Assembly (NCBI RefSeq): GCF_000003605.2
Contig: NW_003119426.1
Coordinates: 802,100-866,099 of the forward strand
Direction of reading: 5' to 3'
DNA: 64,000 bases
Source of the DNA: Saccoglossus kowalevskii
Lineage: Eukaryota > Hemichordata > Enteropneusta > Harrimaniidae
A program made the position numbers and the translations under genes. This document shows, one piece after another, positions 704 through 60,240 of this stretch (position 1 is its first letter; each line of letters begins with the position of its first letter). The notes under the pieces are model-generated. The model was not told the origin of the DNA. It saw nothing but the letters and a program-made list of their open reading frames with translations, and ran no database searches.

Positions 704-7506
<6,803 letters not shown>

Positions 7507-10981: not shown

Positions 10982-13900
10982 TCACGATTTTCCCCAAACT
11001 ATTGTATGTACTGCTTCTTTCTTGAAATGATTCCAGTTAGTGAAGTCCTGTAGATGGTCTTGTAGCGTCTCCGTGGTCGGGTAAGGGCGGTGAGATTGAC
11101 GTACCGCGCGCCTCACTTTGTCGTCTGCGTGTTTCGTGAAGAACGATTTGTGAAGCATTATACATTCTGCTCCCCGGCTTATCTGATGAAAAAAAAGTTT
11201 ACATTTACAGTAACAAGAAAGCCATTTCTCGTCACCTGGGTGCTAGATATGAATAATGTTAATCACAATTGAACAATATATTGAATGATTTAGCTAAATA
11301 TGCAAATTATCTAATGAATATGCAATTATTTCAAACTTATTATGCAGGCTTTTGAGTTAAATGTCGGGTAGTAGGCGCATATAAAGTGCCTTTGAACACA
11401 CAATTTAGTTGGAATACAAACAAAACATGCTGAAAATAGTTAGTAGTATGTGAATTAGTCAATTCGTATTTACAGATTAAATATATACCATAACAATAAA
11501 TTGTAGAACGCCGCCCTCAATTTTTAATTTTATATTAAAGGGCGGTGATCGTCTCGCCACGCATGCGCGAGATTTGGGCCACATAAGAACAGATATGGCG
11601 ATTTTGACTGTTGCGCAGACCAATAAGAGTACAAATTGGAAAGTGTCGAAATAGTTAATAACGGCAATTAGTGCACGTCAGGCCCGGATCAAAATTTTTG
11701 CGCATTGGATTGTGGAAAAGCCAATGTTTATGTCGAACATGCGCGCGACCACCGCCCTTTAACGAAAGATACTTACTAAGTGGACACTGGTTTGCTGAAC
11801 GGCTATAAGGTCCTCGTCAAAAATCAATGTATTTAAACCCTGTGAAACAAATCAAAATATTAGTCATAATATAATTGAAACTGTCACAACTGTAATTTCA
11901 CTATGCTTATACTAGGGTTGGAGGCAGTTCCAGAGCCACATTTGAGGCAAACACCGGAGTGGTGAAACGGAAGTAATCTATACTTACGAACACGTGTTTT
12001 GGATATAGTAACTCCAGTTGCACAAATACAGATTTATCCTTTTTGTCCTTGGGCCGAGGAGTGAGATAGTTTTCTTTGTTTCTGCTGTAAGGGGATGGAT
12101 TATTCGCCTCCTGAAACAATCAAATTAGTATCACGGTTGAAATGAGAAATGGGAGACTAACATGACATTTAGGCTTGAACTCGACAGAGGGCGGGCGCAT
12201 ATCAAAGCTTGATGTGTACATTTTAGAACTTACATCTATTTTAACACGACTTTTTTTCGCTGATGTGAAATTACGATATTTGCTTTTGGAAACTGACTTC
12301 TTAATCAGCACTGCGCCTTTACGGATATCGAATTCTGACACGGGAGACGTCGGTGATGGCGTCGACGAGCTAGATGATGAAGATGAAGGCGACGTTAGTC
12401 TATTTACTTCCTGGATGCTGTCGGCAGTTCGAGTTCGTGTCAAGAATAGATTAGGTAGTGGTCGTAGCTCGTCTCTGGCCTGTAAAAAATCAGACAATTG
12501 CACATAACAATGAAATATACATGAAATCATTATTGAACGAAAGTTTAAAGCGCTATCACATATGGGTCCCATGCAACCTATACAACGCATGTAAAACGCT
12601 TTTTACACGAAATTCTGGCACGCGTGGCACGACTGTATGGTGGCAAATATTTCAGGAAAAAAATCGCGTGGGTTTCACAAGCGACGGACAAGTATTGCAA
12701 CCATGACAACACATATTCTTACCTCTTCTAATTCAGACAGCATACTGTCTTTTTGGTTTCTTGGCGACATAGACAGAGCTCGCTGTCTCTCGCTGTGTCT
12801 TGCTCTGCTGACGCCACCTATAAGAGAACAACACAGATTCAGTTTTAGCCTGAAATGCCATCCAGGTCAAGTTAAATTGAATATTTAACTGTTATCAAAA
12901 ACGTTGTTCATATTACTATCTACAAGCAAAAATAACGTGTCGTGTTTCTTACCACCAGAGTCGTCAATCCGCGGAAGTTTAACACCCCTATGTGCGTGAT
13001 ATTCACCGGGTTTCACAGCTTTCAGTTGCTTTAAAACTTGACATGTTCCCTGTTTATTAAAAATATTGAACCAAATTTGTAACAAGTGCATAATCATCGT
13101 GGCAAAAAGTACCAGATTTGTGAATTAGGGTCACAAATAATTGTCACATGGCTAGTTTCTGGACTATAACTATAATACACGTATTGCACAGCTATTTTGT
13201 TCATTAAAACCAAAATGAAAAAGTGTGTTGTCATGACAACAACCCGCTTCTAACAGAACAAGAAAGTTCTGACATACATCAGTTCGCGCCCAAGTTATTT
13301 GCATGCTATAGGTCGCTTACCGATTTCACTACATATAGCCATTCCGAAGAATTACTATCTTTTACTATAATCTGCCCGCGTCTGAAAGATAAAAAAAAAA
13401 TGGTTGAAAACTGACGACGATTAAAGCGGGGGAATCGTCACCTGCGCATGCGTCACATGGCATTGTCATTGTTTACAAACAAGCTTCCACCCATGAGCCT
13501 TTGCGTTTTTAGAGTGTGTTGTTTTCGTCGCTTGGAACTCAATTCCCGCGCGTGCGCAGGTGACGACCCTTCCGCTTTAAATATAAGACAATAATACAGT
13601 ACGTTGCATATAATGTTGTTACAAACGATTTCGCAGATTTAATAAAACAATAATAATGTAACCGTTTAGACTAATTACTAAATGTGCCCGGGTATGCACA
13701 AAAAAGGACATATGATTGTAGAGAAAATCTAAACCTCGAATACTCACTTGTAAAAATGAAATAAACATCGTTCGGGATGTTCCATTAGCTTCTCAAACGG
13801 AAAATCTTTAAGGCATTCTACTTGTCTGCAAGGAAAAATCGATCAGGAATTATTTGGGTGTGTACCAATAAGTTAGTCGGTATTACATGGACGCTACAAG

Positions 13901-16900
13901 ATCATAGCGCGACAATAAAGCTCACTATGAACGAGGCTAGCTATTTTTAGAAGACGAATAGGTTGTCAGGCCTCGTTGTCAAATTACGTTCTCCCTCATT
14001 GGCTCCTCGGTGTTAGCATAGACCTTATGAATTTTCATGGTTGAAGGGACATTTTGTAAGTTGTTACAAGCAGATTTGTCCGAAATGCATTGGTCAGATT
14101 AAGAGTGGTGTTGTAGCAGTCAGAATTTCGTCTACTGATGCGTATCCCAGAAACCGGTTTACCCAGGCTCAACGGTTACAACGGTTATTCAATGACCTTG
14201 CCACACCTTACTGACGCAATAACCCATAGTATTTGCCTAATTCCCCAGTGACACCAACTTGTGTTAGCGGTATACTGGGTTGTCATAGAAACCTCTCAGG
14301 CTCACCTTAGGAATGTTATGTGTTCTGGTTCTTCACCTGGCCTTTGACCTCTCATGAATATATCAAAAAAGTCTTCCCTGCCGATGGCGAGTAACTGCAC
14401 GTGTCCCTGGCTTGACACTGTCGCCGTGCGAACGCTGTGGTGCAGCAATGCTAACTCGCCAAAGCTGCTGCCCTTTCGTAGCACTGTCGCCGTTCGCAAT
14501 TTCGCCTCTCCGGTAACCGGATTGGTCTCCATAATCGTCACAACGGCTGTAGGCGAAATATAGTTATACAAAATGTAAATTACAGTGCGAAGTACCACGT
14601 GACCCATTCTTTTTATAATTTATATTTATGAATTTGGAAATAAAAATATTCATATACATGGAATACAATCTCTGATTTCCTCTACACTCGAATTAAAGCC
14701 TGAGGCAATTGAAACACCGCGGCCGCCGCCACTGGCGCCAAGGGCCTGCCAAGAATTACACCAATATTAGCGTAACCAGCATCAAAAGAGCGTATGTTTG
14801 ATGATTTATCATGGGACACGTTTATTTTGTTGCTTTATGTACAATATCGCAACAATGTGTTCGGGCAAAAACCCCAAGGGCAGTGTGCTTTTCTTTTGTT
14901 CGCAATTGTGCACTGAATCGAATCTATGATACCGTAGGGGATTCAAATAGGTAAAAGTCGAGTCAGTGGGTCGCGATACCGCTTTAACTCACACATTCCT
15001 GCATTCCTATCTTTACAAAGAGGACACGCACTCCACCTTAAAATATATGCTTAATATTCAATTTGCACTCGTATCGAACACCTTCTACAATTTAGGTCAA
15101 ACGAAGTTAAAGACAGAAATACTTAGCGATGAACGATTAAAAACAAAATTGTTAAGTGCTCGCCCGCATAGACATACTACATGTATATCTATCCATCAGC
15201 CGAAACACAACAAGCATTTGGCAGTACGTTTATTAAACACAGAACGAACATGACATGAGTATATCATAGTTGCGATGTGAAGAGGCATTCAAATATTTAG
15301 TATGCCCAAATAACAGACATTTTCGTAAAAGTAGTGAATATGAATATGAAAACAATTTTAGCCATTTCAAATGAATGAGTCAATTGTTCTATGTTTCAAA
15401 TAAAAATCTTTCAAATCTCCACAAGTCGTTAGCCCTTCCGAGAAACTAGTGGTGGTTTGTCAAAAAATCTCTCTCTCGCTTTCTCTCTCTGTGTCTGTCT
15501 GTCTCTCTCTCTCTATTTTTGTCCGTTGAAATTGACATTAAGGACTCTCTCTGCGAAAATATTGAAAAAAAGTGTTTTGATCGCTCTTTAAGCCCCTAGG
15601 TTATTAGGCGGTCGTCGGGACGCGCGGTATTCGATATAGGCCCATGCGATGTGTTTAACCTATGTGAAATACATTGCGCTGGACGACGACTACCGCCTTT
15701 TATTAATAATAATTTTAAGATATAATTAATGAAAATGACGTCATACTTACCACTTCCTGATATGATGAAATAAAAAGCTTCTGCATAATGACCTTGTCGG
15801 ATAATTACTTTTCGCGGGGGTATACTGAAAAATAGCAAAATGAATAGTTACTGTAATGTTAGTTTTCTGTATAATGTATCTCTGAGTCTCTCCGAACCTG
15901 AATATAAATATGTTACGGATTGAATACAGACCCGAATGTACACGTTAACGCGATACTGGCCAGAAACGTGGTATTTTTTATGGCGGTAATGCAAACATGC
16001 TAGTCTGTTGGTATTTGGTAAGAGGGGATCTTATTTTGTCAGCGTGCGTTCGATTGATACATCCACAAGCACAGCCAGGCATCATGGGTGTTGTATACGA
16101 AACGCGGCATCTTTCGGGAAAGTGGTCTATTTATAGCACAATACTATAAATAGTAGTAACACCTAGTGTTTCCTTGCATTCACCATGGAATATATTTACT
16201 TCCATTCTCTCACTGGGTAACCCGGTAACCCCGAATTACTCCGATCCTTTACTTACTTTTCAAACCATGCGACTCTGGTTAACTTTTCTTGCATATGGAG
16301 AGGATATTCGGCAAATGACTTCATCGTCTGCAGACCATAGAGAGCCTGTCAACGTAAACATTACGTCACATACATGGTTAAACTAGATATGTTTTATACG
16401 TGAGAGGCAGCCATAAGTTTCGATGATAACAGACGGTCCAGTAAAACATTACTACGAAAATCATGCCCCAATGTTTTAACAGTATGCATCATCAAAAAAG
16501 AAAATATTAAGACACAAAAAATACGTATTTTCTAAGAGTGTTTGATACTCTATGGCAATTGATTTCACCATAAAGTAAAATAACGATGTACTTGCAACGA
16601 ACAACTAGGGATTTATTGGACAATAACTATCCCACACTAGCGTGGGGTGTTTTTCATTTTTTATAAAACGAACATAAACAATATTTAATATTAGGATAAA
16701 TCATAAATTATTTGTTTGTTTGTTTGCATGGAATTGAAACACACTCAGCGCGACGACCACTGCCCTTTAAAAGCTGGTTTTATTGAACAGTGTTCAGACT
16801 CATATCACCAGGTCCAAATATACATTTTAAAGAGGGAGGATCGTCCCCTGTACAAGCGACGATAACAACACACACTAAAAACGCAAAGGCTCGTGGGCAG

Positions 16901-17966
16901 ACGCTTGTTTGTAAACAATGACACGCTAAGGCCATCTGACGCATGCGCAGGTGACGAATCCCCCGCTTTAAACTCTCTTGTTGATTCAACTTACGGTCAG
17001 TAGTTGTTCCGGACTTCTCTGCTCACTTGGTAAACTTAAAATATTTTTGACTTCGCTGCTTATATTTATCTGTAACAAAAATATTTAGGTGGTGTTAATC
17101 GTTTTGAACTACAAATTCATGGAATATCCCCAGAGTGATACATTTTCTTGTCCCTCTAGCGGGTTTTAAATGTAAGTTATCGGGCAGGTCTCCAAGTTCT
17201 AATCAACGTTACCTACCTCCCGCTTTGCTTTGAAGTCGTTTGGATTAAACGACAGTCCACTATTCTTCATTTCATCGGATTGGAACTGTTCCGCTATTTC
17301 TGTAAATGTCATCTGTGCTTTAGAATGAGCTTCTTTTTCAGCCCTGTGGGAGATCGTAAGTAAAAAGAGGTTTCTTGATTACCGTGCAATGTAAATAATA
17401 TAACTATTTTCCAATCGTTGTTCTATTTCGCAATAATGTATGTCAGCCTTCTGACATTCCTAATTATTGCGTCGCCAAGATGGGTCAGGCAGCGTTCCCA
17501 GGAAGACACCAAGTGTTTGTTTTTTCCAGGCAACCAGTGCAGTCGCCCATCGCTACAGTTGCCTCGTGTACCCGTAATTGTCGTCGCGTTGCCTTCCAGG
17601 GTTTCCTCAAGAATCGCCTCGCGTAAATGGTGTAAGAACGAGGCAATTGTGAAAAGGCTTAGTTTGAAGCATATTTTGAATACGCGTGTAGTTTATATAT
17701 TACAATACACGGATGAGTTTTCCGAATATACAATTACAAAAAAAGTTATTTTTCACTGAAAATCATTCTCGATTTTAATAGCCCGTGAATACACGCAAAA
17801 TATCAAAATAGCCTTGAAGTATACATAGTAACACCTTCACAGTATTACAGCGAGGAGGCTTTAAATGAAACTGAATTACCGTACGAACTTACCTAGATTG
17901 TATCATGTTGAAAACCCGTATTAGAGTGAGAATAAGGCGGATAGCATGCTGGAACCGTTCACGGGC
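10982..17966 (-). CDS. CNBD2: CNBD2-like cyclic nucleotide-binding protein, paralogue B: shared exons
   Basis: Fourteen minus-strand exons, in transcript order: 17893-17966, 17217-17343, 16995-17069, 16257-16345, 15751-15824, 14306-14546, 13748-13825, 13321-13381, 12953-13049, 12723-12817, 12234-12479, 11988-12110, 11777-11839, 10982-11182 (stop TGA). All borders are GT-AG and phases match. They encode 547 residues after either first exon. The opening helix (ARERFQHAIRLILTLIRV) is followed by the cNMP-binding domain with RKVIIRQGHYAEAFYFIISG and the cassette SFGELALLHHSVRTATV; Glu and Arg are kept (FGEL at residues 576-579, Arg587 in the long form). Next come a linker with a run of eight serines, and a second beta-roll half (VFVQLELLYPKHVFGLNTLI...GAECIML). 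Tail motif HRPYPTTETLQDHLQDFTNW aligns with gene A RPYPTEGSLQQRLQDQTNW. Predicted cyclic nucleotide receptor; ligand choice (cAMP or cGMP) cannot be read from the sequence. Confidence 0.92.
11535..11762. mobile_element. TTAA-flanked MITE, family 2, full copy
   Basis: Ends AGGGCGGTGATCGTC (left) and GCGACCACCGCCCT (right), bordered by TTAA, 228 bp in total. Contains GCATGCGCGA near the left end and the mirrored CATGCGCG near the right. In the last intron of gene B, 14 bp from the exon 11777-11839. No ORF. Confidence 0.8.
13421..13580 (+). mobile_element. TTAA-flanked MITE, family 1, copy 4
   Basis: 160 bp, both TTAA borders and inverted ends present, core in the same orientation as copy 1. 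In the gene B intron 13382-13747, 39 bp from the exon at 13321-13381. Confidence 0.88.
15465..15515 (+). repeat. CT-rich simple repeat
   Basis: CTCTCTCTCGCTTTCTCTCTCTGTGTCTGTCTGTCTCTCTCT in a gene B intron. Confidence 0.8.
15600..15707. mobile_element. Family 2 MITE, short copy
   Basis: Inverted ends TTAGGCGGTCGTCG and CGACGACTACCGCCTTTTA enclose about 75 bp. In the gene B intron 14547-15750. The TTAA borders are mutated on the left. Confidence 0.6.
16827..16971 (-). mobile_element. TTAA-flanked MITE, family 1, copy 5
   Basis: 145 bp, left end slightly diverged (AGAGGGAGGATCG), right end intact, TTAA on both sides. In a gene B intron, 23 bp from the exon starting at 16995, on its 3' splice-donor side. 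Confidence 0.85.
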
Positions 17967-22757: not shown

Positions 22758-23177
22758 TTTTTTTGCTGCTTCTATTCTCATTTGCTTGAATATGTCATTT
22801 CCTCCTCCTTCAGAGGGACGTTGCGGTTTGTTCGCCGTTATCGTAACCACCGATTGCTTTGGGCTGCCAGTGTCCTGAAAAACCACCGCCGATCCTTTCT
22901 GTTTGGCGACGTCGCTCATGATTTTAACCCGGGGAGTACCTATGCCCGGCAAGTTTGGCGTCAGTGTCGCTCGTCTAAGTGTCGATCTGTCGACCCGTGT
23001 TCGAGCGCTCAACTGGTGCGAGGCGGGCAGGATGTGGTATGCCGATCCCTTGCTCTGACGTCGGCGCTGGCTGCGTGGTGGTTCGTCCTCACAGTGGTCG
23101 TTCCGATAGTCTTTTGGGGTGGCTGATGCAGGCTGGTTAGTTTGTTTACCGCCACGTCGTTTCTTGTCACCACTCAT
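22758..23177 (-). CDS. CNBD2: Gene B short alternative first coding exon (140 residues)
   Basis: An open frame from ATG at 23177 (MSGDKKRRGG) to a GTAGGT donor at 22757, ending ...FKQMRIEAAKK in phase 0, which joins in frame to the shared exon ending at 17966. The predicted short isoform is 687 residues. The segment is basic, rich in Ser/Thr/Arg, with no recognised domain; GC content is higher than in the flanks, as in the other coding exons. It is unlikely to be an internal exon of the long form. The nearest upstream AG (GTAG before CAATAATG) would put the ATG frame out of phase with the phase-0 end of the long first exon. That points to a second promoter. An unrelated gene, or a fusion of the two exons by another splice site, remains possible. 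Confidence 0.65.
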
Positions 23178-26100
23178 TATTGCTACGTGATCGCTATCTC
23201 AAAGAACCATAATCGGTGACCCTTGAGGGGCGGAATAATTGAAGACATGAAGCCGTGACTATTTTCAAGACCCCGGAGGCAAAGAAATTGATGACAAAGA
23301 AGTGTTCGATTATAACACTTGTAAGAAAGTGAAATGTTGCCGACATTTATGGTGTACTTGGACCACAGATCTTGATACTCAAAAAATAGGCATAAATCGA
23401 ATGGATCACGTAAACTTAAAACGTGAAATGATGAAAGCAAAGGAAATGGCAGAGAAAGAAACGGAACATGAAAATGAACACAGATGAGGAATAGAAAGAT
23501 CACCATGGTAACCAGTTTCAGGCGAGGGGATGCGGCTGAATGAGAAGTTAATAGATATAGTGGCAATCATGAAGCTAGACATAGAGTTGGAATCGAACCT
23601 CAACAATAATTATGACGAACAGAAAGATTTACATACATCGACACGAGTTACCCCGGATTTTCAAAGACGCGCAACTCAGGGACAGTATACGCTAATGTAG
23701 CGGAAGCGTATTTCTACCGCTCTAATCAAGTCACAAACAGTGCTTAATGCGTTTCATTGCTGTATTTTTGTATTTTATTTTACAAAATCAATGCCGTAAG
23801 TGATGTTGTTCAAATAAAGGCAGTTCAATACCACGATGTGTATGTTGCAAACAATGAGCGGTCCAATAGGGGCTGGTTGGGCGCATTCATTGCGAGCGCC
23901 CAGGCGTTAAAACGCGACTCAAAGTACACGCTGTTTAAACATATTTACCGGAACTAAGAGTTAAAAAAAACATCCAGAACAAACTGACATTTTGACGACG
24001 ACAGGACCAAAAATGAGATGCTTTCAAACACTCACAATTTGAAGTGTGTGTACATATATTATTTAGAGGCCTAATAACGGTATAGATAAAGATATCGGCG
24101 CCTGGGATGTCTTTTGCTATAACAACACAAGATAGTGATATAACGGACGACATCACTTAAACATTCACTGTTTTGCTTTCGAATTCATATAAACTGGCGA
24201 ATGCTTACAAATTTCCAACAAACGGATTTAATATTTGTCAATTTCACGGAGTCACTTTGCAAATCGGTCAGCGAACGAAACACGTGTTGCACATTGATCA
24301 CAGTTCAAAACAGGTACGATTTTTTTTTTCAAATCATAGTAGAGCTATTTAGAGACTGTAACTGTTATTTATTGTACTGTTACAAATCAGTATGTTTACA
24401 GATAATGGAGATGACGGTGATCAACATGCGTATGTGTAAACAGACACCCTCCTCTTATCTGTAACAGCTTAGTTACCGGGCAACACCTCTTTAACATTTG
24501 GAAACACCGATTTGTTTGTCGTTTTTGGATTATTGAAATGTCAAAGATGTATCCTGTGTTGATGAAATTGTCTGGTCGAAGTGTGAACTCTGACGATAAA
24601 AGTGGGCTTCGCGAAGTTATCGTGATGTGAACATAAATATATGCAATAAAGCGCTTTAGGTGGATGTAACGTATTGATTTACGCACGATAGATTATGATT
24701 TGCCATAAAATAAAACGTTGTTTCGCGGCGCATTAGATGGAATTGAAATAACGGGCTGCTCATGCGCGTTGAATTACCGTGAAAACCTCACAAGGTTAAA
24801 TAAGTATACAATACATTAATTCGAACCACATTACTTTCCTCGAAAAAACAGTGTAATGTTTTTGTCAATTAAGTTGAAACATTATACTATATTAAGATCC
24901 AGTGTAGTTTTACTTGTATCTGAATTGACCGCGGTTAAGCAAAACTCTCATACATGTCTTAGAATTTTGAAAAATTAATAAAAGTTGAAGGCGATTTCTA
25001 ATCTCGTGTTCAGCGCTAATTGAACACCAGAGACCAGCGCGAGGCAGATCACACACTATCTGAACACTTTGATCCTGGAGGAAACGAGTTGTGCGTCTTA
25101 TTTTACTGGGTTACCTACAATTCACCTCAAACGATTCCACGCCTCGAAAGATGTGCAATCAACATACACGTAAAACTGAAGCACGCCCTCGGCCCGGGGC
25201 TACTCTTTGTCATTTCGTTAATGCATAACCAGTGGCAGCAATTGAACCTGTCACATCACGATTCAATCATAGTGGGTTAAATGATAAAACAAACCTGGGG
25301 TCGGTGTACGTTAGTATATTGCAAACTTTGATCATAGTTTGACCACCTTCATCTCGCTCGTATATATAGACATATTCGGTAGATGAAAAAAAAAACAATA
25401 TCCACCGATAAATGCCACACTAATTCTAGAATATAGTACACCAATCTAAAACAAGCCGTGTTTCATGTGCGTGCCTTGATTGTAGCAGACGTTTAGGCCA
25501 CTGTTAGCAATCGATCATTATAAACTACAAACGATCATAAAACAAAGTCTTTATTTTGTATTTAGGACTTTCGACTTGGCGATAAATACTGATTGCAACT
25601 GTCACAGATACGTGTATGGATAATGTTTACCAGTATGTTTCGTCGTTTCCATAGTTACGTCAAAACAGCGCCGTACGTCTCTTGATTTATAATCAGTAAC
25701 GAAGTGAAGTCTAAGATCAGACGACTGTTTAAGTGCGCCCTGTTTACTCAAGCTCGTTTGGCTGACAACAACGTTTCCACGGCCCCAAGCTCATTTACCG
25801 CTATTAATTATGTTGAAGAACTTGATATTTCCCATACCTCAGACAACTATACGAGGCAAAATATGTTATGTGGGTGAAAGATTACGTAACGAGTTCTCCG
25901 TCGCCTTTAATGGGTGTGCCATATTAGGAGTACCGTAAATATCACAATCACTTGCCAAGATGTTTAAAGTTAAAATAGTTCAGAGTTTTACTGCACATAT
26001 CTGAAGGATGTTTGTAAATTAAAGTCATGATGGGTATTCCGTTCCGAGGTCGCTGCTATCGCTGTTAAGCTCGTAGACGCTATAAATGTATCGGGTCGCT

Positions 26101-32100: not shown

Positions 32101-32667
32101 TAAAAAAAAAGTCACATTTTATTATTTACATAAAATATTGTAAAATAATTTTTTAAAAAAATGACATATAATTAAGTGAGTTTCCAGGGTGAAAATAGTT
32201 TACCATTATATTCCCAATTAAATTTGAATTAAACTCGAACTTCCTTAGCTATGCGCAATGACCATGAAACAGTGGAACTGTACATCACCCACGGGTTGTT
32301 ATTCCCAGTGACGGTTATTTTAATCGGATTATTTTCTGACATTATTTCCCAGCACTGTGTTGAAAGCAACCCCCTCTACTTAGCGTTGGGTTACAAATTG
32401 ACGTCATTGCAATATGCTTGTTTGAAAAAAAACAAACAATAGTTCGTAAACAAGTCTTCTATTTTCTTTTCAAAATCACGACCGAAACTCCGCGAAAACG
32501 TTCATAAACTTGTGCACTTGATCATGAACACCTGTAGACGCTGTGGGACAGGGAACACACACGAACGCTATCGCTCCAATGAACATATGCACACATCGAA
32601 ACACACAATTAATACAAACAGTGAATAATGTCACATCAGTGGACCAATACACAAAAAACAACTAAAA
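23178..32667. other. Long gene B intron (or upstream region of the short form): no feature recognised
   Basis: About 9.5 kb with only short ORFs of no recognised family, mostly AT-rich. The 31800-32200 part is extremely AT-rich. No tRNA or exon with convincing borders was found; 33621-34873 and 18000-22757 are similar. Confidence 0.5.
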
Positions 32668-33620
32668 CATCCTATAGGATAGATAACACCACTACATGAC
32701 ATAGAATATACATATGTGATGTAGAATACCCATATCAACTATAAACATCCTATAGGATAGAGAACACCACTACATGACATAGAATATACATATGTGATGT
32801 AGAATACCCATATCAACTATAAACATCCTATAGGATAGAGGACACCACTACATGACATAGAATATACATATGTGATATAGAATACCCATGTCAACTAAAA
32901 CATCCTATAGGATAGATAACACCACTACATGACATAGAATATACATATGTGATGTAGAATACCCATATCAACTATAACCATCCTGTAGGATAGAGAACAG
33001 CACTACACGACATAGAATATACATATGTGATGTAGAATACCCATATCAACTAAAACATCCTATAGGATAGAGAACAGCACTACATGACATAGAATATACA
33101 TATGTGATGTAGAATACCCATATCAACTAAAACATCCTATAGGATAGAGAACACCACTACATGACATAGAATATACATATGTGATGTAGAATACCCATAT
33201 CAACTATAAATATCCTATAGGATAGAGAACACCACTACATGACATAGAATATACATATGTGATGTAGAATACCCATATCAACTAAAACATCCTATAGGAT
33301 AGAGAACACCACTACATGACATAGAATATACATATGTGATGTAGAATACCCATATCAACTAAAACACCCTATAGGATAGAGAACACCACTACATGACATA
33401 GAATATACATATGTGATGTAGAATACCCATATAAACTATAATCATCCTATAGGATAGAGAGCACCACTACATGACATAGAATATACATATGTGATGTAGA
33501 ATATCCATATCAACTATAATCATCCTGTAGGATAGAGAACAGCACTACATGACATAGAATATACATATGTAATGTAGAATACCCATATCAACTAAAACAC
33601 CCTATAGGATAGAGAACACC
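32668..33620 (+). repeat. 78-bp satellite, about 12 tandem copies
   Basis: Period 78 bp (for example starts at 32668 and 32746). Each unit holds two short palindromes, TCCTATAGGA and ACATATGT, and begins CATCCTATAGGATAGA. Copies differ by a few substitutions. Located in the long intron of gene B. Confidence 0.96.
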
Positions 33621-34873
33621 AATATTCTGTTCTTGTGAGATCTTCATTTCAAATACCGAAACGAAGCCAATTCTTACAATTTAAATATAATTCAATTTAT
33701 ATTACCAGAACATAGGATGACGTGTAACTTGGAAAAAAAGTTTATATATGCTGCATACAAAAAAATCACTTAAAATGTATGTTTTTTTACTTTGATATCA
33801 TCTGCCAACGGATACTCAAATTTTTTTAAAATAATCTGCGGTCGGGTTTTGGGAGGAAATAATTATGGCTATTAATACTGTTAATAATGTTCATATAAAC
33901 AGGAACCAACTCTAACAGATAGAGATCAAAATACGAAAATAAAAGCGTATGTCATTTATTTAAGTTATATAATTTATTTACCATTGTAGGCTCCGAGAAT
34001 TCGACGTTTTTAAAAGTATATTACTTGCGGGGCATTGGGATCTTGCGAAAATTACAGACGGTACAATGTATAACTCTGTATTCCAGTTAGAAATAATTGT
34101 TTTCCATTTTCCTTCAATGATTTTTGTTAGACTGTCACATAACACAGCGTAATTCAAATCTGCGGACTTTATATTAAATTAGGGCTAAATGCACATTTTG
34201 ATTGTAAATATCACCGTGACGTTATAATAAAATTATGACGAATACATCGCCAATAAAATCTGTCAGTAGATGACGCATGGTTTCTGTAACCTGCGATTGT
34301 TTGTGTCTGATCTTTTGCCCTAGAAATCAAACAACATCAGCCAATGTAAACACAAGAATAACTCAGTTAAGCCAGAATGCCCCAACTTCAACCCCCATAT
34401 TATCAGGTGTCACCGTGTACGCGGTTTTTGTTACACGTGTTAGGCTTACGTCGACGTCGATTGAGATAATGGTGTGTCACGGTTGCGTGACGTCTTAGTT
34501 TGATTATTGTTGTTGCTAGGTCACTCGTGTTCAACAACAACTACAGGCAAATTGCAGCCACAGCCGCAAAGTACTAGTAAAATGCAGGGCGTCCTCTAGT
34601 AGAACTTGAAGACCAGCGGCACGCCATGTTTTGTTGTGGTCTGCGTTCAATAAATCTGATAAAGATCAATAAAGATCTGATTAAAAAAAACAAGATTTGT
34701 TTTTGATCTTGAGATGTTTCATTCGGGTCGACCATAATGGAGGGGCGGTGGCTGAAAGATTTGTTGTAAAAAATGTGCATGCAATGTGTTACAGGGTCAA
34801 TTGTTGGCAACATTCTAGAAATTTAACATGAAAATGCGCTGACAATACAACGTGGAAACACATACTTCTACCA

Positions 34874-36993
34874 CTAATTCACTGGGTGTGGACCCATTAA
34901 TTCACTGGGTGTGGGTCCATTAATTCACTGGGCGCGGGTCTATGGATTCACTGGGTATGAGTCCATAAATTCACTGGGTGTGGATCCATGAATTCACTGG
35001 GTGTGGGTCCATGAATTCACTGGGTGTGGGTCCATGAATTTAGTGGCTGTGGGTCTATGAATTCACTGGGTGTAATTTCATGAATTCACTGGGTGTGTGT
35101 CCATAAATTCACTGGGTGTGGGTCCATGAATTCACTGGGTGTGGGTCCATAAATTCACTGGGTGTGGATCCATGAATTCACTGGGGATAGGTCCATTAAT
35201 TCACTGGGTGTGAGTCTATGAATTCACTGGGTGTGGGTTCATGAATTCACTAGGTGTGGGTCCATAAATTCACTGGGTGTGGGTCGATTAATTCACTGGG
35301 TGTGGGTCCATGAATTCACCGGGTGTGGGTCGATTAATTCACTGGGTGTGGGTCCATGAATTCACTGGGTGTGAGTCTATGAATTCACTGGGTGTGAGTC
35401 TATGAATTCACTGGGTGTGCATCCATGAATTCACTGGGTGTGAGTCCATTAATTCACTGGGTGTGGGTCCATGAATTCACTGGGTGTGGATTCATGAATT
35501 TACTGGGGATAGGTCCATGAATTCACTGGGTGTGAGTCTATGAATTCACTGGGTGTGAGTCTATGAATTCACTGAGTGTGGGTTCATGAATTCACTGTGT
35601 GTGGGTCCATAAATTCACTGGGTGTGGGTCGATTAATTCACTGAGTGTGGGTCCATGAATTCACTGGGTGTGAGTCTAAGAATTCACTGGGTGTGAGTCT
35701 ATGAATTCACTGGGTGTGGGTCCATGAATTCACTAGGTGTGTCCCGTGAATTTATTGGGTGTAGGTTCATGAATTCACTGGGGATAGGTCCATGAATTCA
35801 CTGGGTGTGGATCCATGAATTCACTGGGGATAGGTCCATGAATTCACTGGGTGTGAGTCTATGAATTAACTGGGTGTGGGTCCATGAATTCACTGGGTGT
35901 GGGTCCATGAATTCACTGGGTGTGGATCCATGAATTTATTGGGTGTAGGTTCATGAATTCACTGGGGATAGGTCCATGAATTCACTGGGTGTGAGTCTAT
36001 GAATTCACTTGGTGTGGGTCGATTAATTCACTGGGTGTGGGTCCATGAATTCACTAGGTGTGAGTCCGTGAATTTATTGGGTGTAGGTTCATGAATTCAC
36101 TGGGGATAGGTCCATGAATTCACTGGGTGTGGATCCATGAATTCACTGGCGATAGGTCCATGAATTCACTGGGTGTGAATCTATGAATTCACTGGGTGTG
36201 GGTCCATGAATTCACTGGGTGTGGGTCCATGAATTCACTGGGTGTGGATCCATGAATTCACTGGGTGTGGGTCCATGAATTCACTGGGTGTGAGTCTATG
36301 AATTCACTGGGTGTGAGTCTATGAATTCACTGGGTGTGGGTCCATGAATTCACTGGGTGTGAGTCCATTAATTCACTGGGTGTGGGTCCATGAATTCTGG
36401 GTGTGAATCCATGTATTCACTGGGTGTGGGTCCGTGAATTTATTGGGTGTAGGTTCATGAATTCACTGGGGATAGGTCCATGAATTCACTGGGTGTGTGT
36501 CTATGAATTCACTTGGTGTGGGTCGATTAATTCACTGGGTGTGGGTCCATGAATTCGCTGGGTGTGGGTCCATGAATTCACTGGGTGTGGGTTCATGAAT
36601 TCACTGGGTGTGAGTCTATGAATTCACTGGTGTGGGTCAATTAATTCACTGGGTGTGAGTCCATGAATTCACTGAGTGTGAGTCCATGAATTCACTGGGT
36701 GTGAGTCCATTAATTCACTGGGTGTGGGTCCATGAATTCACTGGGTGTGAATCCATGTATTCACTGGGTGTGGGTCCGTGAATTTATTGGGTGTAGGTTC
36801 ATGAATTCACTGGGGATTGGTCCATGAATTCACTGGGTGTGAGTCTATGAATTCACTTGGTGTGGGTCGATTAATTCACTGGGTGTGGGTCCATGAATTC
36901 GCTGGGTGTGGGTCCATGAATTCACTGGGTGTGGGTTCATGAATTCACTGGGTGTGAGTCTATGAATTCACTGGGTGTTGGTTCATTTATTCA
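34874..36993 (+). repeat. 23-bp minisatellite, about 92 tandem copies
   Basis: Unit TGAATTCACTGGGTGTGGGTCCA with many single-base variants; most units contain GAATTC. A higher-order pattern is visible: the block around 36418-36628 recurs at 36762-36972, 344 bp later (15 units), with the same ordered set of variants. Located in the gene B long intron, ending about 245 bp from the long first exon. Confidence 0.97.
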
Positions 36994-37238
36994 CGGTATC
37001 CAGGAATTAACAACAGCAAGGGGTACTATATACATAATGCAACATCTGCACATACACTCTTTATTGAAGGTTTGTCTGGCAACAATGTTGGGAAGGCAAC
37101 CAACATTTTCAAATTTTATGTTTGAAGATTGTGACCACTGAAGCCATCAAAATAATAACATTATCACACAATAAATTAAAAATCGCGAGAGTACACTCCC
37201 ATCAGATCACTTCAACAAAATATTAAAAGAGTGCTTAC

Positions 37239-38441
37239 CAGAGCCCGGGATATTTCTTTCTCTATATCATACATGACGATTTTCCCTCGTCTACTTGGCG
37301 GCATAGCCCTCATACTGATAACACTGGACCGCCTTGTAGCGGAAGGAGACGTGTCAACCACTATCTCCGCTGCTGTATATGGTCGTATTTGACACAGAGA
37401 AGCCCTTCGACCGCCGGTGCTACCGCTCCGTACATCGTCTGTGATCACGATAGACATTCGTCGCCCGAAGTTAACAGTGGACGATCGTCGCCTCGCGGGT
37501 GCGCCTTCCCTCGGTGTCTTTGAGGCACAGTTCTCGTAGGTGTCACGGCTAATTGATGTATTTTTTTTCTCTGATTCGGAGCTGGATACCAAGGCACGCC
37601 GACGTTGCTTGGCAACCGTTTTCAAAGCTCCTCTATCAGACGATGATTTGGAGAGATAATTGTCCAGCATTTTGTTCCTTTTGATGAAATACGTCGCTGA
37701 CATCTTCTCCCATGAATGTCTGAGTGGGCAGCTGTGCTTACCTGATTCCGGGGACATGTTAGAAGTGATAACGGCCGAGGCGATATCAGAATCGCTTTTA
37801 CATCGGCGCAAAACTTTGCTTTTAATAGACTTTCGTAAACTTCCTAAATCGTCCGTCGAAGCTTTCAAGTTTGGTGCATTGGTCGGCAACTCTGGCTTAC
37901 TGCCCGGTCGCTGCACCGCTGCAGTCGAAGATTCTTTCGACGATGCAATATTAGCATCGGCCTTGTAAGAGCTCCCGTTTTCGCACACCTGTGTTTTCAT
38001 GGTGTCGTTTCTCCGAGCTTCTTTTCTGCGGGTTGCTATCCGTTTTCTCTCATCGGGTGTTAAGGGCGCTGATGCTGGAAATGGAAACTCAATACTGTAG
38101 TCGAGTCCCAGTCTCCGAAATTTATTCATTCTCTCTTCTTCTTCCTGCCTCGACTCTTCCCCGCCCGACAACTCGTCGTCATCACGATATCGCGAGATTA
38201 GAAACTGTACTTTCTTCTGATTCTCTGTGAGGTTTGTCTTCTCCGACGTCGGCTTTTCTCGCGCACATTCTTCAACAATGTCTTTCTCCTTCGCTACTCC
38301 CTGCGCGTGTAACTTTGAAATCAATCGAATCGCGTCGAGGCTACCAACATAGTTCTCGGGCCGAGCATACTCTTTCAATACATGCTCATGCGCTTTTATT
38401 TCTGGCTCAGGAATATAACTCTTCCTCCTTGCGCCAGCCAT
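37239..38441 (-). CDS. CNBD2: Gene B long first coding exon: 401-residue Ser/Arg-rich N-terminal extension
   Basis: Reads from ATG at 38441 (MAGARRKSY) to a GTAAGC donor at 37238, phase 0. This matches the phase-0 acceptor of the shared exon ending at 17966. With it the protein is 948 residues. The extension has an acidic and basic, probably helical first 110 residues, and then a low-complexity Ser/Arg/Lys part. Five RRxS protein kinase A consensus sites are visible: 5-8 (RRKS), 317-321 (RRRSS), 327-330 (RRMS), 345-348 (RRAS) and 370-373 (RRSS). No known domain recognised. The downstream intron to 17966 would be about 19 kb and contains two large satellites. The exon could instead belong to a separate gene; phase agreement, direction and the fitting helix across the junction (EKEISRAL then ARERF) favour gene B. 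Confidence 0.75.
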
Positions 38442-51280: not shown

Positions 51281-52274
51281 CTATGACTTTTCATTGGTAT
51301 GTGTTCTCATATGATTTTTGAGATGATTAGACTTAAAAAAACTCTTCTTACATTGCTCACAATTATAAGACTTTTCATTGGTATGTGTTCTCATATGTTC
51401 TTTGAGATGATTAGACTTAAAAAAACTCTTCTTACATTGCTCACAATTATAAGACTTTTCATTGGTATGTGTTCTCATATGTTTTTTGAAATGATTAGAC
51501 TGAGAAAAACTCTTCTCATATTGCTGACAATGATACACTTTTCATTGGTATGTGTTTTCACATGTTCTTTGAGATGATTAAACTGAGAAAAACTCTTCTC
51601 ATATTGCTCACAATTATAAGACTTTTCATTGGTATGTGTTTTCATATGTTCTTTGAGATGATTAGACTGGGCAAAACTCTTCTTACATTGCTCACAATTA
51701 TAAGTACTCAATTAGGAAAAACTCTTCTCACAATGTTCACAATGGTATAGTTTCTCTTTGGTATGTGCTAGCATATGCACTTTGAGATTACTTGATGTGG
51801 TATAACTCTTTTCACATTGCTGACAATCATAGGTCTTCTGATTGGTATGTGTTCGTATAGGACTTTTGAGAGTATATGAATGGGATAAACTCTTGACACA
51901 TTGCTCACAATGATAAGGCTTTCTCTTGGTAAGTATTCCATATGCTGTTTAAGATAACTCGACAGAATAAAACTCTTCTCACATTGCCCTAAATCATAAA
52001 GTTTCTTATTAGTTTGTGTGCTCATATGGTATGTCAGATTGCCTGACTGGGCAAATCTTTTCTTGTAAAGCTCACAGTGATAAGGCTTCTCATTGGTATG
52101 CAGTCGTTCTTTGAGATGACATGATTGGGCAAAGCTTTTCTCAGATTGCTCACAATATAAACAATAAACTCGGTTATTGAGCATCCTTTTCTTGGGGATG
52201 CTCGGTGACCGAGAGGAAGGCGTACCGTGGTGGAGTGTAGCCAGGCGATCATTTACGTAAATATTTACTTTCAT
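51281..52274 (-). pseudogene. Decayed C2H2 zinc-finger array (about 11 fingers)
   Basis: Minus-strand tandem 84-bp units encode fingers of the form CEQCxKSF..SNHLKEHMRTHTNEK. I count about eleven units between 52190 and 51290. The reading frame shifts near 51940 (after LKQHM) and near 51540 (after HTNEK), and a TAA stop cuts a finger at about 51715. Several fingers have lost a zinc ligand: the second Cys is Tyr in CEQYEKSF and CELYKKRF, and Ser in CEQSEKSF. The last finger ends in HTNEKS followed by a stop. No start exon or other domain is seen. With two frameshifts and a stop this cannot encode the full array, although the last three fingers (51281-51538) are still open. The NEK linkers replace the usual GEK, as in many invertebrate finger genes. 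Confidence 0.85.
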
Positions 52275-58700: not shown

Positions 58701-60240
58701 ATTACATTACAAATGTCTGTGAAATACGTAACAAATTGCATTACACGTCTATGTATAATGTATTACTGTAAAATACTATATTTTAGCTGGAATTATTTTC
58801 GCTGAAAAGATTTTTGTGTGTTTTTTATGGAATTTATTTTCACACATGTTTTACGAGTTGGAATAAAAATATAGGAAAAGATGTATATTCGCTGAATTTT
58901 ATTTTCACTAAATCATTTCTTCAGCGAAAATAGCGAAAAATAAAGTATTTTACAGTGAGGCCTTTATCACATTGTCGGATGTCGTCACTACCTCAGTTTT
59001 GTCACATTTCAGAGCCATAATACCGTATGTTTTTTTACTACCTACTATTATTAACCATCTTCACATATATTTCCACGAATATTCAGAGTATAAAACATAC
59101 CTCCGTTGTAGAGACCATTAGCATTATATAGCGATCCTGTATGAATCCCAGTTGCCGTCTCAATTAGATGGCGTGTCCACGTGTTTCCAGACCGAGGAAA
59201 GCTCGTTAACCCAACTAATGGTCTACTTCCATTCGGCCAATTACCATAGCCGACAGAACAGTTAGGGTAGTCATTATCTGTATTGAAAAAAAAAAACTAA
59301 GTTGAATATGTTGCAATTCAATAAAAAAAACTCAAACGAAACTAATATTTATTTGGTAGTGATATATCTACAACATGTAACATCAGCAGCAATCTGATTA
59401 AAACCCGATGTAGGTATAAGGCTTATTTTTTTTATGACCCTTTATATAATATTTATTTGTATTTTAGTTTGAATATGTCGATTTTTTGTTTTTTCTTACC
59501 GTTTTTCTAAGAACTGATTAACGGCAAGACAAATATTCAAATTAAAATACAAATAAATTATATAAAGGGTCATTAAAAAATAATAATAAATACAAAAAAT
59601 GGAGCATCATACCTACATCGGATTTTAATCAGATTGCAACAGCAGTAAGTAAATATAAACGTTACACCCACCTTTCAAAATTACTCTTGATTTTTAGCCC
59701 TATAAGTCGTTTTTTTTATAGTAGCTTTTCACACAAAAATCATTTAAACGTAGTAATTTGTGTACCCCCACATTTTAAATGTGTGAAAATGTGCTATTCG
59801 ACAGTGTTATTGTGAATAAATTTATATATGCTGTGACACAGCACAACCACTTAGGTTTAACGTTTATACGTCGAAAAGTAGGAACAAATTGGAGATAAAG
59901 TTGCATACATACCGGTGTCGTCTTTCGTGATATTGTGTCCAGTTATTGTGTGATTATTTTCCACACCAATGCTCGTCTTTTGTGCCTTGGATTTTTCGGG
60001 ATCAGTTTTAAGCTTTAACGTTCGAGCTATGTCGTCAGTTGTTTCAGTGTTGGCATTTACAGTGCTGGAGTGTATGCCCTTTACAAACCTAGTTACATTC
60101 GATTCTTTATCGGGCAATTGTGTTTTAATCTTTGTCGACACCGTAGACCAGTCGGATAGACTAGCATGCCGAATGTTGAAGTAAAGGGATACTAGGCATA
60201 TTGCCGGTAGACAAAACGGTGGTAGTTTTCTGATAACCAT
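55741..60240 (-). CDS. WSCD-family type II membrane sulfotransferase, without WSC domains
   Basis: Four exons: 59913-60240, 59101-59277, 57092-57280, 55741-56105 (1059 nt, 352 residues plus stop), all GT-AG and in phase. The start is MVIRKLPPF at 60240; an acceptor (TTTACAG) just upstream at 60257 suggests a noncoding 5' exon. Residues 7-22 form a short hydrophobic anchor, followed by a Ser/Thr-rich stem to about residue 110. The PAPS 5'-phosphosulfate loop is [10 protein letters not shown] (134-143). The 3'-phosphate motif is RNPYDSFVS, with Arg202 and Ser210 at the usual eight-residue spacing. The C-terminal part ([23 protein letters not shown]) is typical of the sulfotransferase fold. WSCD1 and WSCD2 of vertebrates carry WSC domains in the stem and sulfate sialic acid; none is present here, so the substrate is unknown. 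Predicted site of action is the Golgi lumen. Confidence 0.93.
56688..56730. mobile_element. Family 2 MITE, right-end fragment
   Basis: Only the terminal part (CGACGACTGCCGCCCTTTAA) with its subterminal TCGAACAGG block is recognisable, in the last intron of gene C. Similar single ends occur at about 16740-16772 (GCGCGACGACCACTGCCCTTTAA) and 40300-40350 (CACACCGCCCTTTAA). Confidence 0.55.
56862..57026 (+). mobile_element. TTAA-flanked MITE, family 1, copy 7
   Basis: 165 bp full-length copy with TTAA borders and both inverted ends. In the gene C intron between exons 55741-56105 and 57092-57280, 65 bp from the latter. Confidence 0.88.
59386..59640. repeat. Foldback element in a gene C intron, arms of about 90-110 bp
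   Basis: Left arm 59386-59476 (CAATCTGATTAAAACCCGAT..., ATGACCCTTTATATAAT...) is inverted at 59531-59640 (..., ATCGGATTTTAATCAGATTG). Identity is high except for an AT-rich part in the middle. Loop of about 55 bp. Located between gene C exons 1 and 2. Confidence 0.85.

Follow-up and report, generated by a model that had tools for sequence, protein, structure and literature searches.

The window, i.e., the whole analyzed stretch of 64,000 nucleotides from Saccoglossus kowalevskii (contig NW_003119426.1, here C1211:802100-866099), contains two convergent paralogous genes, gene A on the plus strand and gene B on the minus strand (Table 1). Contig coordinates with the prefix C1211 are used for features that lie off the window. 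Gene models were built by a simple home-made splice scorer, which is uncalibrated for this species, together with reading of the sequence. In these models gene B starts with one of two candidate first exons, the long E1L or the short E1S, and continues with fourteen core exons running from 17966 to 10985, yielding predicted products of 948 aa (long form) and 687 aa (short form). The cores of genes A and B share 203 identical residues among 504 aligned, with exon edges partly set by eye. Beside the gene A exon at 704-827 a minus-strand open frame of LFIY repeat units (700-1248) was classified as a simple-repeat artefact.

Table 1. Positions of the features of genes B and A; coordinates with the prefix C1211 refer to the contig, all others to the window.
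Feature	Position	Strand	Description
E1L, gene B candidate first exon, long form	37239..38441	minus	401 codons, phase-0 donor CTCTG/GTAAGC
RRKS, E1L residues 5-8	38418..38429	minus	
RRRSS, E1L residues 317-321	37479..37493	minus	two RRxS registers, then TVNF
RRMS-I, E1L residues 327-330	37452..37463	minus	
RRAS-L, E1L residues 345-348	37398..37409	minus	
RRSS-V, E1L residues 370-373	37323..37334	minus	
Possible in-frame 303-nt intron inside E1L	37439..37741	minus	inferred; donor 7.1, acceptor 2.6
E1S, gene B candidate first exon, short form	22758..23177	minus	140 codons, phase-0 donor 3.3
RRQS, E1S residues 39-42	23052..23063	minus	
RRAT-L, E1S residues 68-71	22965..22976	minus	
E2 of gene B	17893..17966	minus	hydrophobic helix-like segment; phase-0 acceptor 8.5, fits both first exons
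Gene B core	10985..17966	minus	14 predicted exons, 547 aa, PF00027
Exon with phosphate-binding cassette FGELALLHHSVRTAT	14306..14546	minus	
Gene A, convergent paralogue of gene B	704..7504	plus	E2 and candidate first exons upstream, off window
Gene A E2	C1211:800400-800470	plus	phase as in gene B E2
A788, gene A candidate first exon	C1211:787752-788342	plus	197 aa, ATG frame, phase-0 donor
A791, gene A candidate first exon	C1211:790848-791720	plus	291 aa, ATG frame, phase-0 donor
797 kb gene A candidate first exon	C1211:797079-797378	plus	100 aa, ATG frame, phase-0 donor

The core of gene B matches PF00027 at 4.5e-19. Its cyclic nucleotide-binding domain (CNBD) contains the motif FGE, an Arg 11 residues on and a Phe 39 residues past that Arg, as determined by counting. 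In mouse CRIS the ligand-contact residues F277-E279, R288 and F327 were reported in the available text of PMC3854790, and the FGE, the cassette Arg and the alpha-C Phe of gene B stand at the same spacing; a difference is N330 of mouse CRIS, which is Gln in gene B. Among the best 60 of 81 PDB matches of the core, a Toxoplasma protein ranks first (4e-21), followed by PKG and PKA regulatory subunits (PKA-R), and the alignments with the latter two extend into the start of the second CNB domain. The cassette residues RTAT of gene B are also present in PKG. A scan of the core with the cassette pattern returned only one cassette and no second one. At 13381-10985 the core goes on into a degenerate second CNB-like region, and a long Ser-rich stretch then separates this region from the conserved C-terminus. 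A search of the same genome for CNBDs gave nine matches, of which eight were taken as loci. One of the eight is gene B; compared with the gene B core, the other seven gave two weak tblastn matches (E 8e-5 and 0.06), and one of them (L007) contained no readable piece. Presumably, L001 is CNG-like and L002 and L006 are Epac-like. Exon 7 of gene B matches genes A and B only (E up to 0.001). The name CNBD2 is applied to gene B on the basis of the earlier note, the PF00027 match and the features of human CNBD2, and gene B is a probable invertebrate relative of CNBD2.

CNBD2, also named CRIS, is a little-studied cAMP receptor. In mouse, normal spermatogenesis and bending of the flagellum were described as requiring it (PMC3854790). 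CRIS, known from mouse and human, is a receptor of sperm precursor cells, and the same source gives it as absent from mature sperm. It also reports FRET measurements in which the mouse CRIS CNBD responded to 8-Br-cAMP and not to 8-Br-cGMP. In the annelid Urechis, Cnbd2 was named as a ciliogenesis hub gene in the available part of PMC10380512. A ciliary or sperm context is suggested for gene B by homology. RFX X-box-like palindromes, e.g., at 37604-37616 and 24472-24484, occur five times in 94 kb vs 1.4 expected; one lies inside E1L, and only one precedes a gene B start, at a distance of 1.3 kb. They carry no weight in the interpretation given below.

Both candidate first exons of gene B end in phase 0, which is the phase needed by E2, and E1L can accordingly be predicted to splice in phase to the CNBD2-like gene. 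Within -80 to +60 nt around the two start codons the best acceptors, both out of frame, score just 1.5 and 0.8, so that E1L and E1S both look like first exons. The donor assumed for E1L at codon 401 scores 5.0 and is its second best; the best (7.1) lies at codon 233, in phase 1 and before the cluster of sites described below. Among the five candidate first exons of both genes, E1L is the exception in this respect, the best-scoring donor being phase 0 in the other four. Two exon ends in the gene B core also have weak donors (0.3 and 2.1). If the possible 303-nt intron inside E1L were used, residues of about 234-334 including RRRSS and RRMS would be taken out. The 176 codons past codon 233 stay open, which happened in 87 of 20,000 composition-matched and in 0 of 20,000 intron-trained simulations, and this long open frame disfavors routine removal of the intron. 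The complete open frame at E1L comprises 428 codons, vs a maximum of 237 in 60 Markov-2 windows. The codon score of E1L exceeds those of all 480 non-coding windows, which is weak evidence as its own forward frames are barely separated (0.234, 0.171, 0.217). E1L alone gave 0 matches against 177,635 PDB sequences at E up to 10; in its own genome E1L was found in one place only at E up to 0.001, and E1S in one place only at E up to 10. An AKAP-type helix pattern is absent from the 948 aa of the long form. In that form, the predicted first intron spans 19 kb and contains a minisatellite with a 23-bp unit in about 92 copies (34876-36994); a further tandem array (32659-33621) has a 78-bp unit in about 12 copies.

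Five RRxS sites are present in E1L in the frame and at the residues that an earlier note on this DNA had given, and four of them fall, as it had described, within 57 residues (317-373); for RRKS the residues 5-8 are correct, while its first codon begins at 38429 and not at 38430. The codons vary from motif to motif, so the motifs are not a DNA repeat. RR.S occurs in six overlapping registers vs 0.63 expected, a count reached in 0 of 20,000 residue shuffles, and in the same shuffles other registers gave 0 vs 0.63 (S.RR), 2 vs 0.62 (RR..S) and 1 vs 0.62 (RR...S). RR pairs are themselves over-represented in E1L (13 vs 4.7); shuffling these pairs as units nevertheless left an excess of RR.S, with p 0.005 for the whole exon and p 0.0005 for residues 301-401. 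Over all spaced triplets at ten spacings, RR.S is the top one in E1L (p 0.0087 for its count and p 0.0050 for its excess), and in residues 301-401 the same test gave p 0.0007. Two stretches, RRLGL and RRRAL, are of the type RRx[A/G]-hydrophobic, with a nominal p of 0.007 that is not corrected for the RR-pair excess. By charge-hydropathy all four quarters of E1L lie on the disordered side, the last one narrowly (0.441 vs 0.449). The PKA consensus is RRXS/T-hydrophobic according to the available text of PMC7361990, and E1L contains RRx[ST]-hydrophobic sites, the accessibility of which is judged by charge-hydropathy alone.

The claim of the earlier note that such sites are missing from the short form proved wrong in substance, as E1S carries its own RRQS and RRAT-L. 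Gene A was examined in the same way, with candidate first exons that we picked from open frames; their links to gene A consist of position, strand and phase and of nothing else. Upstream of gene A, between 770.6 and 802.1 kb, there are five plus-strand stop-to-stop frames of at least 110 codons, of which three were used; the two left out (at 777633 and at 793895, the latter with RRST) lack an ATG frame as long as 90 codons. In the 797 kb exon the donor was taken at codon 100 (3.3), although the best one, also in phase 0, is at codon 12 (6.3). A788 carries RRRS-F and RRLS-LINF, A791 carries RRLS-LGNF, and RR.[ST] is absent from the 100 aa of the 797 kb exon. In its own genome A788 finds itself and one match at E 3.4 (E up to 10); A791 finds itself and a decayed inverted partial copy, a DNA match of 85 bp with 88% identity (L011:6998-7082, i.e., C1211:789097-789181) without the RRLS motif.

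In E1S and the three gene A first exons taken together, RR.[ST]-hydrophobic was counted four times vs 0.39 expected (p 0.0007), RR..[ST]-hydrophobic twice vs 0.38 (p 0.05), while RR[ST]-hydrophobic and RR...[ST]-hydrophobic gave p of about 0.3 and hydrophobic-[ST].RR was counted 0 times. The reversed [ST].RR is somewhat high in these four exons (4 vs 1.69, p 0.08) and in E1S alone (2, p 0.02). For the three gene A exons alone RR.[ST]-hydrophobic is enriched (3 vs 0.345, p 0.004) and plain RR.[ST] is not significantly so (3 vs 1.44, p 0.18); with E1S added, the latter amounts to 5 vs 1.71 (p 0.02). RR.[ST] is found 0 times in the cores of genes B and A (547 and 520 aa, about 0.5 expected in each) and once in 2706 aa of 23 other ATG frames of at least 90 codons from the window and its flanks, a control of unmatched composition. 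Common to E1L and both motif-bearing gene A exons is RRxS[hydrophobic or T]xNF, which occurs twice in gene A vs 0.001 expected, a pattern written after the three exons had been seen. When the five first exons were aligned with each other in all 10 pairs, A788-A791 was the sole pair to exceed the shuffles, and this nominally (p 0.016, uncorrected); the aligned part does not cover the RRLS motif of A791. For E1L-A788 (p 0.31) the best piece is the RRR...NF stretch.

The reading that we prefer, with a probability of roughly 0.55, is that gene B encodes a CNBD2/CRIS-type receptor with alternative disordered arms that are multi-site targets of PKA, PKG or another basophilic kinase. The proposal of the earlier note that the long form is a multi-site PKA-type substrate gains support, as RRx[ST]-hydrophobic recurs in E1S and in two of three gene A candidate exons and is absent from the cores; short-motif matches are unable to name the kinase. 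Gene B would have at least two alternative first exons selected by alternative promoters, each of which would provide a basic, Ser-rich and probably disordered N-terminal arm. The RRxS cluster of the long arm, with a mostly hydrophobic next residue, would be phosphorylated by one of these kinases. A single polypeptide might be acted on by cAMP in two ways: the nucleotide would bind to the CNBD and, through the kinase, would switch the charge and the partner binding of the arm.

That the RRxS motifs are neutral low-complexity noise is very unlikely in our view: E1L is disordered-looking and rich in Ser and Arg, and plain RR.[ST] is not significant in gene A alone, but the shuffle and look-elsewhere tests on E1L and the recurrence of the motif in other first exons speak against chance. 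Another explanation takes the RR-rich arm as a basic patch for binding of microtubules, membranes or nucleic acids or for nuclear targeting, in which the serines are incidental. It accounts for the excess of RR pairs in E1L, for first-exon arms that are basic and Ser-rich and for the somewhat high [ST].RR in the first exons other than E1L; it does not predict that Ser stands at the +3 register beyond the clustering of RR (p 0.005 and 0.0005) or that RR.[ST]-hydrophobic recurs outside E1L, and we regard it as unlikely. The cluster would lose its connection to the CNBD if E1L lay outside the CNBD2-like transcript, being the exon of another gene or exonic in residues 1-233 only. The length of the first intron with its large minisatellite and the strong phase-1 donor at codon 233 fit with this, yet the frame beyond that codon is open to an extent rarely or never reached in the simulations, the region upstream of gene A is similarly laid out, and no further candidate exon was detected between 23.2 and 37.2 kb at thresholds that would also miss some accepted core exons. 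Such a separation appears quite unlikely.

The earlier note had also considered the arm as a PKA docking or sponge sequence. In such a reading it would resemble the inhibitor sequence that PKA regulatory subunits carry and would be freed on cAMP binding to the CNBD. As in PKA RII, RRxS sites are found on the N-terminal side of the CNBD, which in gene B resembles PKA-R and PKG in sequence up to the start of a second CNB domain, and the inhibitor sites of RII are RRXS in the available part of PMC4497662. RRLGL and RRRAL, which are of the RRx[A/G]-hydrophobic type, count nominally for this idea. Against it, Pfam detected no D/D domain in E1L, E1S or the core, and several E1L sites, five in total and each with a phosphorylatable Ser, stand in place of one inhibitor site. 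From Ser 373 in the last of them to the cassette Phe 576 the distance is 203 residues, a longer spacing than in R subunits. In place of two intact tandem CNB domains gene B has a degenerate second CNB region, and no second cassette motif was found in the gene B core. The PKA-substrate pattern of mouse Cris knock-out sperm was reported to be unchanged in the available text of PMC3854790, which says little since CRIS is, according to the same text, no longer present in sperm. The docking or sponge idea is kept alive by the two stretches but is weakly supported, and we consider it most improbable.

The multi-site kinase-target reading was also compared with other known systems. GLI/Ci are multi-site PKA targets with several RRxS close together in a disordered region; a difference is that the gene B polypeptide also carries a cyclic nucleotide-binding domain. 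HCN and CNG channels combine cAMP binding and PKA phosphorylation in one polypeptide, but these are channels and their sites are not known to lie in alternative first exons. Relative to mouse CRIS, in which the cassette Arg is residue 288, the corresponding residue of gene B is 587 in the long and 326 in the short form, the long form having about 300 extra residues before it. The available text of PMC3854790 makes no mention of alternative first exons with RRxS clusters.

As a tentative and rather doubtful extension, both CNBD2-like genes may pick among several promoters that provide one and the same cAMP-binding core with different disordered heads, each with its own set of family-specific RRxS(L/T)xNF or RRx[ST]-hydrophobic switches. 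In cilia or sperm, promoter choice would then set the strength of PKA feedback on a sensor that detects cAMP directly. Alternative heads with PKA-type sites would constitute a concrete and testable tie of direct cAMP sensing by CNBD2 to PKA signaling in cilia and sperm.

Elsewhere in the window, a minus-strand exon candidate at 59101-59277 contains a stretch of 14 residues that resembles a sulfotransferase P-loop, and a zinc-finger-like open frame, which scores below the Pfam cut-offs, is located at 51768-52274.
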